From a virus, in IMG/VR virus record IMGVR_UViG_3300021517_000002, positions 1 to 44,730 of that record: a DNA stretch of 44,730 nucleotides; one strand, given 5' to 3'. The notes below the pieces were generated by a model that made no database searches, was not told the origin of the DNA, and was given only the letters and a program-made list of their open reading frames with translations. Below are positions 8,524-12,266 of this stretch, piece by piece (position 1 is the first letter of the stretch; the number at the start of each line of letters is the position of its first letter). The position numbers were made by a program, and so were the translations under genes.

Positions 8524-8778
8524 TTAAACCATTAGACTTGGAAGAATTTCTGTTAACAATGAATCAAGCGTACTTTCCGTATTACTGTTTCGTTCAGCCA
8601 TGATCCTGATGTATTCATCTTTTTCGTACTGAACCATGTCATATTCAAAGCCAGTGAAAGTGTTATCCCCATCATTTTCTTCAACTTGTGTAATGTTGGA
8701 ATAAACCCAAACGTTAAATTCATCAATCACTAATGGTTCAGGTTGAACAGTGCTTCTTACTTTTCCATAATCTTTCAT
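8524..8778 (-). CDS. XkdW-like tail protein
   Basis: 84 residues. Start overlaps the RT stop (ATGA-type, 8778/8775), so translation is coupled. Central NVWVYSNITQVEE and C-terminal MVQYEKDEYIRIMAE then LLTEILPSLMV match small XkdW-like proteins after the fibre gene of PBSX-like phages; role unknown, possibly fibre assembly. It is not similar to the DGR accessory protein Avd (too short, acidic). Confidence 0.75.
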   Translation of the reverse strand: MKDYGKVRSTVQPEPLVIDEFNVWVYSNITQVEENDGDNTFTGFEYDMVQYEKDEYIRIMAERNSNTESTLDSLLTEILPSLMV

Positions 8779-9842
8779 GCAGGTATTCCACCCTTCATAT
8801 AAATGTTTTGCAAATAATAATCATCTGCAAATTGTTGAATTGGTTCAATATATTTTTCTATTAATCTATAACTATCACAATGAATCAACCATCCCTTATA
8901 GGAATTGATTGAACACCATTCTGAATAATTTAGTTCTTTTCCTTCTATCCGCTTTTTATTAATTGCAATCATTTTCTTCTTGAATTGCTTACAAGTGGAT
9001 TTTCTAAGAAGTTTAAAATTCAGAAATATCCTGTATCCAACATAATCAATTCCACGCACAAATGTAGGGAACACTTGCCAACTTTCTTTGATTTTTAACT
9101 TCAATTTTGTTTTGAAATATTCATCTATTTCTTTTCTAAGTTGATGAAGTGCTTCTTTGTTGTTTCCAAGGATTACTATGTCATCCATGTATCTGAAATA
9201 ATGCTTTACACGTTTGACTTCTTTTATCCAGTGGTCAAACTCTGAAAAATAAAAGTTACCACTGTATTGTGACAGATAATTTCCAATAGGAATTCCAGTG
9301 TCACCAGGTGTAGAATCAATGATTTCATCCAGTAACCAAAGAAGGTCAGAATCTTTGAACAATCTTCTATATTTTTCTTTTAAGATTGTGTGGTTGATAG
9401 ATGGATAAAACTTCTTTGCATCAATTTTTAAACAATACTGTGACCCTGGAACATCATTCTGAACTTCATCACATAATCTATTGAAACAAAGATGAATTCC
9501 CCTTCCTGGAATTGCTGAATAAGTATCCTTGGTGAAATTGTTTAATAGTAGCGGTTCAATTATTTGTAATATTGCCCACTGACATATTCTGTCGGGGAAA
9601 TAGGGTAATTTAAAAATTTCTCTTTCTTTTCCGCTATCATTCTTGATGAATGTTTCATAGTTTGAAGTTTGGTACGTTTTATTAATCAGCATTTCTTGAA
9701 GCAAACTAAAATAATATTCGGGGTTTGCATCAACCATCTGAACTTCTTTGTACCATCCTTTTCCCTTTTTAGCATTTTGGTGTGCAAGGATTAGGTTGTC
9801 CATATCATAAATTTTTTCGTATAAATACCCATGTCTTTTCAT
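8775..9842 (-). CDS. DGR reverse transcriptase
   Basis: 355 residues; ribosome site AAAGGAT before ATG 9842. RT motifs in order: KIDAKKFYPSI (Asp141, metal ligand), GIPIGNYLSQ (183-192), YMDD (218-221), then thumb sequence with GIDYVGYRIF. The IGNxxSQ form in place of QGxxxSP separates DGR enzymes from group II intron RTs. It copies TR RNA with errors at adenines; the cDNA replaces VR in the fibre gene. Gene order is fibre-VR, TR, RT. The RT is embedded in the tail operon and has no neighbouring avd gene. Confidence 0.95.
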   Translation of the reverse strand: MKRHGYLYEKIYDMDNLILAHQNAKKGKGWYKEVQMVDANPEYYFSLLQEMLINKTYQTSNYETFIKNDSGKEREIFKLPYFPDRICQWAILQIIEPLLLNNFTKDTYSAIPGRGIHLCFNRLCDEVQNDVPGSQYCLKIDAKKFYPSINHTILKEKYRRLFKDSDLLWLLDEIIDSTPGDTGIPIGNYLSQYSGNFYFSEFDHWIKEVKRVKHYFRYMDDIVILGNNKEALHQLRKEIDEYFKTKLKLKIKESWQVFPTFVRGIDYVGYRIFLNFKLLRKSTCKQFKKKMIAINKKRIEGKELNYSEWCSINSYKGWLIHCDSYRLIEKYIEPIQQFADDYYLQNIYMKGGIPA

Positions 9843-9947
9843 TTATGACTATCCTTTGTATGCACATTATCAAACCGAATCTTCAACCTTTGAAAGTTCA
9901 AAGTCTACCAATACAGTTCAATTCTTTTTATGTTTTACCAAGAGGTA

Positions 9948-9958
9948 GGGCAATCAGG
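9948..9958. repeat. Inverted repeat flanking TR, arm A
   Basis: GGGCAATCAGG, exact reverse complement of CCTGATTGCCC at 10152-10162. It lies in the TR-RT spacer and would pair with the other arm in the minus-strand RNA. Confidence 0.7.
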
Positions 9959-9986
9959 TTTCACATTTTTAAGATTAATTTTATGC

Positions 9987-10106
9987 ATTTACTAAGTGAC
10001 TGCTGATATTCCGATTACGATTAGAAGAAGTATTATTCACATTCCAATAGAAACTACCACTATTAGAAGAATTATTCCAATTACTGCCTAATTGAGTGAT
10101 TAACTA
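9987..10106 (-). repeat. DGR template repeat (TR)
   Basis: 120 nt aligned without gaps to VR at an offset of 228. On the minus strand TR has 40 adenines; 28 differ from VR and none of the 80 other bases does. Rich in AAT codons (AAT-AAT-TCT-TCT-AAT), the usual design for diversifying Asn codons. In the VR frame it contains a stop-like TAG at its first codon and is not translated. Confidence 0.95.
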
Positions 10107-10151
10107 TAATGGCTTTTTCTTTTGTGTCTGACTTCTTGGTTGTATCAACAC

Positions 10152-10162
10152 CCTGATTGCCC
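10152..10162. repeat. Inverted repeat flanking TR, arm B
   Basis: CCTGATTGCCC, 35 nt after the fibre stop and 46 nt before TR in transcript order. Pairs with 9948-9958. Confidence 0.7.
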
Positions 10163-10196
10163 AAATTTATTTCAATATTTTTATTCTATGTCAGTC

Positions 10197-12266
10197 TTAT
10201 GCTGCATCAGGTACATACACCAAGCGACCGCCGACATCCCGACCACGACTAGAAGAAGCATAAGTCACACTCCAACAGAAACCACCACCATAAGAAGAAT
10301 AAGTCCAACTACCGCCCAATCGAGCGATCAACCATCCATTGTATGTGTGATTCTGATAGAAGTAATCACCAACTGGAAGTGAACTATCACCTGTTGTTTC
10401 AGAAGGGAAGAACAACCAGTCAAATTCTTCATTGTAACCGAATGCTGAAATATAGCCATCTTTTCTTGACAATGTAATTCCTGCATCTTTATATGGTGAT
10501 GTTCCTATGTCATCGGCAAATGCATTATCAGCAACATAAAGATTATTCATGTTTTTAGCTTCAATATTCTGACCATCAACAAACTTCCAAATGTTCATCC
10601 AAAAGTTTTCTTCCCCACGATAAGTGACAACATTAAATCCATTTGTATTTGTTACTGCACCTGATGAATTTCCAAGGTTTGTGGTTGCACCAGTAAGTTC
10701 AGCCATATTAGATGTAGCATCATCAGTCTTTTGAACACCGTTTCCAATCTTGGACTGTGTGTTCATGGAAGCATATTCGATTGTAAACAATAACTGTGTT
10801 GCAGCAACTATTGCAGCATATGCCTGCTGCCAACCTGTACCACGATTGTTTGCTAATTTTCTGAATCCACTTCTTGTTGCACCTGTTTGTGTCACACCTG
10901 ATGTTGGTTTTGCATTTGCAATGGATGATAGTAAGTCACCAGTTGAAGCAGTAAAATCAACTATCTGTTCATCAGCTAACAAATATACACCTGCTGATTT
11001 ATCAAAGACTGATCCTTCAAATGCTGATGGGTAAATGAAATTCTTTTCTTTACCGTTACTAATAAAAGCAGGGTGAAGTTTAAATCCTACCTTCTTCACA
11101 TCAGAAATATAATATCTTGCTTTTCTCATGTGGAATCCTTTACCGACTTTACCCGAAACAGTTTTAGTCACTGTTGCAGTAACACCAGTTGTTCCACCGT
11201 TAAATGTAGCAGTTACTTTTTCACCTGAATCAATAGCTGTAAATGTTACTGATGAACCTGATCCACCAGTTGTCCATCCTGTAAATGATGCTGCTCTGAT
11301 TTTTGTTGCTACTAAAGATGTTGTGTTATCACTTGTAGCAACTGCAACTGTGAAATCTTTACCATCAAGGTTGATAGTCACATTTCCATCTGATGTTGGA
11401 ACTGCTGTAATTGCAAGCGTATTGATTTCTTTATATTCAACCTTATCAAGTTGTAATGGAACTACCTTGTAATAGAATTTTGGTTGTTCAACCATGACTT
11501 GAACTTTTGTTCCAACTGCATAAGTAGTACCGCCCTTTGTAACTGCTTGTAATAAAGCACCAGTTTCCGTATATGCAGCTTCACCATAATACGCTAGAAC
11601 CTTACCATCATCAGCTAAAATACATCTTTTTCTTCCACCGAATGCATTGATGTTGTCGAACCCTGAACCTGGTATTCTATTTACTGCACCTGCTAATCTA
11701 GTAAACTTCTTATTTTTAAAATCTACTTCCACACCAACAATGTCACTGTCTGTATATCCAACAAATGCTTGAAGGTCTGAAATTTTATTCTGTAAATCTG
11801 CAATATCACCAATAGTTGCAACAGCAGCAGGGTCAACATTTAGTGAAACACTTGAAGCATTTGAAACAGTTGTGACAAGCTTAAAGAAAGCACCTGATGT
11901 TGTAATTCCATTATAAGGTGGCATATATCCGGCTTGACTTGCAATAGTTACCGCATAAAGAATTTCACCAAGGTCAGGGTCAATGGCATAAAGTCCGATT
12001 GCCCTCATATAGTAACCAGTAGATAAATCAGTATTAGTAACCGCCCCTTCAACTTGAACAGCTACATCATTTGTTCTAATAACTCTACTGATTAATGTAG
12101 TTTGCTTGACACCTGATAATGAAGTTAGACCAGGAAGTTGTCCATCAGTATAGGTTGTATCTGAAACACTGATCTTTGTGAATAGAACATTTCCTGTACC
12201 TGCAAGCATTTTCGCCATCAATGCTTGACCTCTATCTGTAATAATTAACTGTTTAAATTCAGCCAT
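10197..12266 (-). CDS. Tail fibre / DGR-diversified receptor-binding protein
   Basis: 689 residues. The N-terminal about 165 residues match phage tail-fibre/collar N-domains (DUF3751-like: FKQLIITDRGQALMAK). The middle contains a beta-sandwich, Ig-like segment (about 270-380, TSDGNVTINLDGKDFTVAVA). The C-terminal about 150 residues form a C-type-lectin/FGE-like fold carrying VR (GWLIARLGGSW ... RLVYVPDAA). Such proteins display a variable ligand surface at the fibre tip and set host range. VR lies at the extreme C-terminus, as in known DGR targets. It lies between the XkdU-like baseplate gene and the DGR RNA. Confidence 0.92.
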   Translation of the reverse strand: MAEFKQLIITDRGQALMAKMLAGTGNVLFTKISVSDTTYTDGQLPGLTSLSGVKQTTLISRVIRTNDVAVQVEGAVTNTDLSTGYYMRAIGLYAIDPDLGEILYAVTIASQAGYMPPYNGITTSGAFFKLVTTVSNASSVSLNVDPAAVATIGDIADLQNKISDLQAFVGYTDSDIVGVEVDFKNKKFTRLAGAVNRIPGSGFDNINAFGGRKRCILADDGKVLAYYGEAAYTETGALLQAVTKGGTTYAVGTKVQVMVEQPKFYYKVVPLQLDKVEYKEINTLAITAVPTSDGNVTINLDGKDFTVAVATSDNTTSLVATKIRAASFTGWTTGGSGSSVTFTAIDSGEKVTATFNGGTTGVTATVTKTVSGKVGKGFHMRKARYYISDVKKVGFKLHPAFISNGKEKNFIYPSAFEGSVFDKSAGVYLLADEQIVDFTASTGDLLSSIANAKPTSGVTQTGATRSGFRKLANNRGTGWQQAYAAIVAATQLLFTIEYASMNTQSKIGNGVQKTDDATSNMAELTGATTNLGNSSGAVTNTNGFNVVTYRGEENFWMNIWKFVDGQNIEAKNMNNLYVADNAFADDIGTSPYKDAGITLSRKDGYISAFGYNEEFDWLFFPSETTGDSSLPVGDYFYQNHTYNGWLIARLGGSWTYSSYGGGFCWSVTYASSSRGRDVGGRLVYVPDAA
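10215..10334 (-). repeat. DGR variable repeat (VR) in the tail-fibre gene
   Basis: 120 nt encoding GG-rich C-type-lectin sequence near the fibre C-terminus (LGGSWTYSSYGGGFCW...). Changes from TR are A to G, C or T only, including AAT to TAT, ACT, AGT, GGT and GAT. Six codons separate VR from the stop. There is no GC-only tract at its 3' edge as in the Bordetella IMH. Confidence 0.95.

Follow-up and report, generated by a model that had tools for sequence, protein, structure and literature searches.

A tail-fibre diversity-generating retroelement without Avd in a temperate phage, with a covarying RNA frame and a probable dependence of adenine misreading on the 3' template base

The DNA analyzed here, hereafter the window, is the whole of a virus record of 44,730 nucleotides (IMGVR_UViG_3300021517_000002) and represents a temperate contractile-tailed phage. 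Its minus strand carries, in this order, a tail-fibre gene ending in a variable repeat (VR), a template repeat (TR), an RT-17 RNA, a reverse transcriptase (RT) gene, a small phage gene and genes for a coiled-coil protein, a holin and an amidase (Table 1). Elsewhere, the record encodes an S24-type repressor, a serine recombinase, an SPP1-type portal, sheath, tape measure and baseplate J proteins. A preliminary description of this DNA had placed a diversity-generating retroelement (DGR) at positions 9987-10334; this interval takes in the TR and the VR, but the RT gene, the RNA element that separates it from the TR and the bulk of the target gene lie outside. Directly after the RT, with an overlap of a few base pairs, lies an open reading frame of 84 amino acids (8524-8778, minus strand) that matches a phage family of unknown function, phrog_18126. 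Its position makes it a possible DGR accessory and hence a candidate; no search supports reading it as Avd.

Table 1. Positions of the retroelement features in the window.
Feature	Position	Strand	Description
DGR reverse transcriptase	8775..9842	minus	355 aa; PF00078 (RVT_1), phrog_1423; best PDB match 8ub7
RT-17 RNA (RF03020)	9856..9952	minus	TR-RT spacer; 76.1 bits against a gathering score of 40.4, full length 1-95/95
P2 3' arm (GTGCAT)	9860..9865	minus	at the spacer RNA 3' end, immediately ahead of the RT start
P1 3' arm (CCTGATTGCCC)	9948..9958	minus	just after the TR, overlaps the RT-17 start; covariation
P2 5' arm (ATGCAT)	9983..9988	minus	3' edge of the TR; predicted pairing with 9860-9865
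Template repeat (TR)	9986..10107	minus	122 nt, 41 adenines; aligns with the VR without gaps, mismatches (28/28) at TR adenines only
P1 5' arm (GGGCAATCAGG)	10152..10162	minus	just before the TR; duplex partner of 9948-9958, covariation across 53-55 related systems
Target gene, tail fibre	10197..12266	minus	689 aa; PF12571, phrog_5302/7037 tail; C-terminal domain holds the VR
Variable repeat (VR)	10214..10335	minus	3' end of the tail-fibre gene; ungapped repeat with the TR

A repeat search of the window returned one direct-repeat family, whose two 122-nt copies (9986-10107 and 10214-10335) are spaced by 228 nt. On the minus (coding) strand, 28 of the 41 TR adenines are changed in the VR (22 to G, 4 to T and 2 to C), while none of the 81 other bases is (hypergeometric p = 5.9e-18). 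The gap-free alignment with adenine-only differences reported earlier is therefore borne out over 122 nt, with 28/28 mismatches at TR adenines, although the counts given at that time (28 of 40 adenines and none of 80 other bases) fell short by one base at each end. It had also been stated that substitutions go mostly to G, which holds for 22 of the 28 changes; however, this is no loose bias but follows a context rule common to the RT lineage, as set out below. At codon 645, for example, TAG in the TR reads TGG in the VR. When the non-adenine bases of the TR were matched to the whole 44.7-kb record, only the TR and the VR matched and the next best place had 42 non-adenine mismatches. The element therefore has a single VR, and no second VR was found in the window by this match.

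The RT frame is intact and its translation contains the motifs IGNYLSQ and YMDD. A PDB search identified 8ub7 as the closest solved chain (E 7e-32), which we take to be the RT of the BPP-1 DGR (bRT). Together with the matches to PF00078 and phrog_1423, these results agree with the earlier statement that a DGR-type RT stands beside the repeats. The assignment of the target as a tail fibre also stood, on the basis of PF12571 and phrog_5302 and of a structural model of the VR domain. This AlphaFold model covers the last 315 residues of the fibre and is of moderate confidence (pLDDT 68, pTM 0.69). Its closest solved structure was TaqVP (5vf4; Z 14.8, rmsd 3.2, 210 aligned residues, 21% identity), followed by Mtd (Z up to 5.9) and then by formylglycine-generating enzymes and C-type lectins. 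Since the closest structures are DGR variable proteins, the target domain is predicted to have the DGR C-type-lectin fold. TaqVP originates from a Thermus DGR; the window protein, by contrast, is the tail fibre of a phage and bears an extra tail-collar N-terminus (PF12571).

The Avd gene of BPP-1-type DGRs is missing from the cassette: neither bAvd (PF22296) nor the S23-type family (PF05635) was matched anywhere in the window. PF22296 was likewise absent from 16 other virus records of the RT lineage, each of 34-49 kb, whereas the search did detect it in both positive controls, VP58.5 and BalMu-1. Furthermore, VR-to-TR offsets among the systems with RT-17 are mostly 160-280 nt, which leaves no room for Avd. 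Previously, the crAssphage LMMB was assigned to an Avd-less DGR lineage, lineage 3, with the order target gene-VR-TR-RT (PMC7290462), and the window has this same order without avd. Because Avd-less DGRs of such order were already known, the type of the window is not new in itself; the window element is a genuine DGR of this known Avd-less target-VR-TR-RT type.

In addition to gene order and the lack of avd, LMMB and the window share a tail-fibre target; the LMMB RT is 40% identical to that of the window, and AG sites become G in 7/9 cases in LMMB. In an RT tree built without the original lineage-3 reference set, the window shares its side of the tree with LMMB and other crAss-like RTs (support 87/86). 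The two elements differ in host group and phage type, and the IMH/IMH* ends of LMMB are identical according to its authors (PMC7290462), whereas the ends of the window TR and VR differ at several adenines. With BPP-1, the window shares adenine-only TR-to-VR changes in a tail-fibre gene, a DGR RT, a TR-RT spacer RNA and a C-type-lectin target (Mtd in BPP-1). Unlike BPP-1, it lacks Avd, its TR uses AAT where that of BPP-1 uses AAC, and the outer ends of its repeats carry adenine differences where BPP-1 has a GC-only stretch.

The RNA between the TR and the RT gene of the window matches RT-17 over the full length of the Rfam model, and RT-17 lies at the same place in 26 relatives. Rfam lists RT-17 as an sRNA gene, whereas in the present systems it consistently forms the spacer within the template RNA of a DGR. 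Its first bases form half of a duplex, P1, whose partner lies before the TR and thus outside the Rfam model. The complementarity of GGGCAATCAGG and CCTGATTGCCC was first noticed in a listing of upstream regions. Across 55 related systems, the P1 duplex had a mean of -19.9 kcal/mol with the system's own partner and -12.3 kcal/mol with swapped partners; no value under -14.1 kcal/mol arose in 10,000 permutations. An ungapped 12-bp pair count, in which the score was maximized for own and swapped partners, gave scores of 9.76 and 5.44, respectively, with G-C, C-G, A-U and U-A all present at most positions. For the second duplex, P2, the corresponding values in 53 systems were -10.5 with own and -9.26 with swapped partners (p <= 1e-4), although P2 is short and this test is close to its limit; P2 covariation was seen in the diverged members L030, L031, L034, L126, L130, L144 and L148.

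These patterns of covariation suggest that RT-17 belongs to a larger frame, in which P1 would close across the flanks of the TR and the 3' end of the TR would pair with the 3' end of the RNA. The spacer of BPP-1 folds, brings in the RT complex and provides the adenine from which cDNA is primed at the 3' edge of the TR (PMC12875486). By analogy, P2 lies where the start of the cDNA would be expected. No link between RT-17 and DGRs was found in the open literature.

The preliminary description held that the DGR has been active and proposed that the VR be compared among related prophages. One relative, L069 (=L007), has an RT that is 82% identical to that of the window and an identical 122-nt TR, and its VR departs from that of the window at roughly a dozen positions, every one a TR adenine, which supports past activity indirectly. 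Six further pairs of relatives combine the same TR with different VRs. Thus, VRs of the lineage appear to have been rewritten from conserved templates, and we infer from its intact parts that the window copy is still active. It might instead be that a cassette once active has decayed and that the window copy no longer homes. Decayed members are indeed present in the lineage: L017/L092 (IMGVR_UViG_3300002498_000114) and L105 have TRs down to 19 and 23 adenines, with 11 and 9 non-adenine mismatches to the VR, respectively, and the RT frame of L017 contains a stop. However, the window has an intact RT frame, zero non-adenine mismatches and a complete set of RNA parts, and we regard decay of this copy as quite improbable. 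The repeats have also to be weighed as two copies that diverged by chance or duplication without any reverse transcription, as neighbouring copies 228 nt apart might suggest. This account has a vanishingly small probability: all 28 mismatches fall at one base (p 6e-18), a DGR-type RT adjoins the repeats and the same pattern recurs in dozens of relatives. Chance and duplication are refuted by the mismatch counts.

To obtain a context profile, TR adenines were sorted by the base that follows them and compared with 68 distinct VRs of the RT lineage. Adenines before G, about six per TR, were G in the VR at 98% of 427 sites. Before C, 79% were G, 17% A and 1% C; before T, 50% were A, 27% G, 13% C and 9% T; and before A, 34% were A, 31% G, 26% T and 8% C. 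In the window itself, AG sites became G in 8/8 cases and AC sites in 3/3. With near-copies removed (RT rows under about 80% similar) and labels summed on the RT tree, AG sites of the RT-17 clade became G in 228/235 cases. The AG behaviour label follows the RT tree, with a few members of the wider clade mixed. The crAss-like phages retrieved showed AG to G at 4/4, 11/11 and 19/22 sites in three VR zones, the effect being weaker in the interior (19/22). Other DGR lineages behave differently: one with 15 VRs (RT lineage D, L223-L246 and relatives) shows the opposite behaviour, in that 47/47 interior TR adenines before G stay A, another keeps A at 20/22 sites and a third varies. Selection may be the reason that AG is kept as A in these lineages, in which synonymous sites are too few. 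No description of the AG rule was found in the open DGR literature examined.

Within the lineage, the VR hardly varies at either end, and conversion of the outermost sites is therefore uncertain. Restricting the counts to the interior (26 nt or more from the 3' edge) rules out that the AG rule arises from VR ends that had not been replaced. At interior sites where A and G are synonymous, AG gave 57 G and 1 A, compared with 13 G and 23 A for AT (Fisher p = 9e-12, from VRs of related phages that are not fully independent). In seven pairs with the same TR and different VRs, AG was G in both members at 23/23 sites, and AT and AA sites differed at 88/157. The stop codons that TRs contain in the VR frame are all TAG (6, close to the ends in every case); TAA and TGA do not occur. 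Two other sources of the rule were rejected. Re-copying of the template by slippage predicts sense C before C, which was observed at about 1%, and decay of TR G to A after the VR had been written, which would leave a GG-to-AG signature, is ruled out by relatives with the same TR and different VRs, all of which have G.

The main alternative is an ordinary DGR with random A-to-N substitution, in which G at AG positions has been kept by selection on the fibre, mainly for glycine and for conserved lectin-fold ends. Many AG codons do become GGT or GGC glycine codons and the VR ends are conserved; in addition, a survey of 155 DGRs, which was not resolved by context, called the substitutions 'essentially random', against a strong enzymatic bias (PMC3521204). 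However, interior fourfold-synonymous AG sites were G in 28/28 cases, whereas AT sites there were mostly A, which rules out protein selection as the source of the rule at synonymous sites. Moreover, at columns where the VR is invariably G, the TR has A in 0/58 cases if T follows, and 93 A to 125 G if G follows; AG thus appears to behave as a spelling of GG in the TR. With about six AG sites per TR, random misreading would also leave most products defective. Altogether, we consider selection on an ordinary DGR to be unlikely, and the rule probably comes from the enzyme, with the RT as its putative origin.

Previously, context profiling of BPP-1 in E. coli identified the 3' neighbour as the strongest influence and showed elevated dG incorporation (sense C) in NAC (PMC12875486). 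The window lineage differs from BPP-1 both in direction, as A before C goes to sense G and hardly ever to C, and in strength, as AG is nearly deterministic. Within the literature examined, what appears to be new is the placing of RT-17 in a covarying frame and the near-deterministic, lineage-wide change of A to G before G.

We therefore favour, with considerable confidence, an Avd-less target-VR-TR-RT DGR in a temperate contractile-tailed phage, with a folded RNA frame and adenine misreading that depends on the 3' base. The parts, the covariation and the context rule can be read from the sequences, while the RT as the seat of the rule, the priming site and cDNA homing are what we infer from them. 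In this mechanism, the TR would be transcribed inside an RNA whose flanks fold round it, by P1 and then by the RT-17 spacer, and P2, which joins the spacer's 3' end to the 3' edge of the TR, probably fixes where reverse transcription begins. The enzyme would copy the TR and misread its adenines, and the cDNA would replace the VR at the end of the fibre gene and so change a lectin-like host-binding surface. Misreading would be set by the template base 3' of each adenine, yielding almost always G before G and mostly G before C, whereas adenines before T or A would be left or randomized. Under this rule, true diversity in the TRs would come from AAT codons, and AG would serve as a fixed A-to-G recoding; in the templates of the lineage, AAT was counted 677 times and AAC 52 times. 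Fixed recoding may in turn give a cDNA that fits the VR better than the TR, which would help to protect the TR.

A wider proposal, to which we give even chances, is that this RT lineage is a context-programmed recoder that turns 5'-AG into 5'-GG in almost all cases and randomizes A solely before A or T. TR adenines would then be of two kinds, 'dice' (mainly in AAT) and 'fixed edits' (AG and mostly AC). We propose that, as fixed edits match the cDNA to the VR and mismatch it to the TR, the TR would be spared from overwriting. The folded RNA of RT-17, P1 and P2 may partly stand in for the Avd of BPP-1.

The only systematic context-resolved DGR profile that we found is that of BPP-1. Lineages that recode AG and lineages that keep or vary it would represent naturally occurring RT variants that act in opposite ways at one and the same step of the template, so that the structural basis of selective adenine misreading becomes directly testable; such misreading also bears on the use of DGRs as targeted mutagenesis tools. 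The tie between RT-17 and DGR template RNAs, together with covariation of the flanking duplex, would provide a defined RNA frame for Avd-less DGRs.

Two further RNA features were observed in related phages. A GC-rich hairpin, seen by eye between the TR and RT-17 in L011, L012, L018, L022, L023, L024, L027 and L028 and absent in the window, looks like a terminator or an insulated stem. Finally, a Type II hammerhead ribozyme that scores higher than the Rfam gathering cut-off lies in one related phage contig (L018:3867-3937, minus strand).
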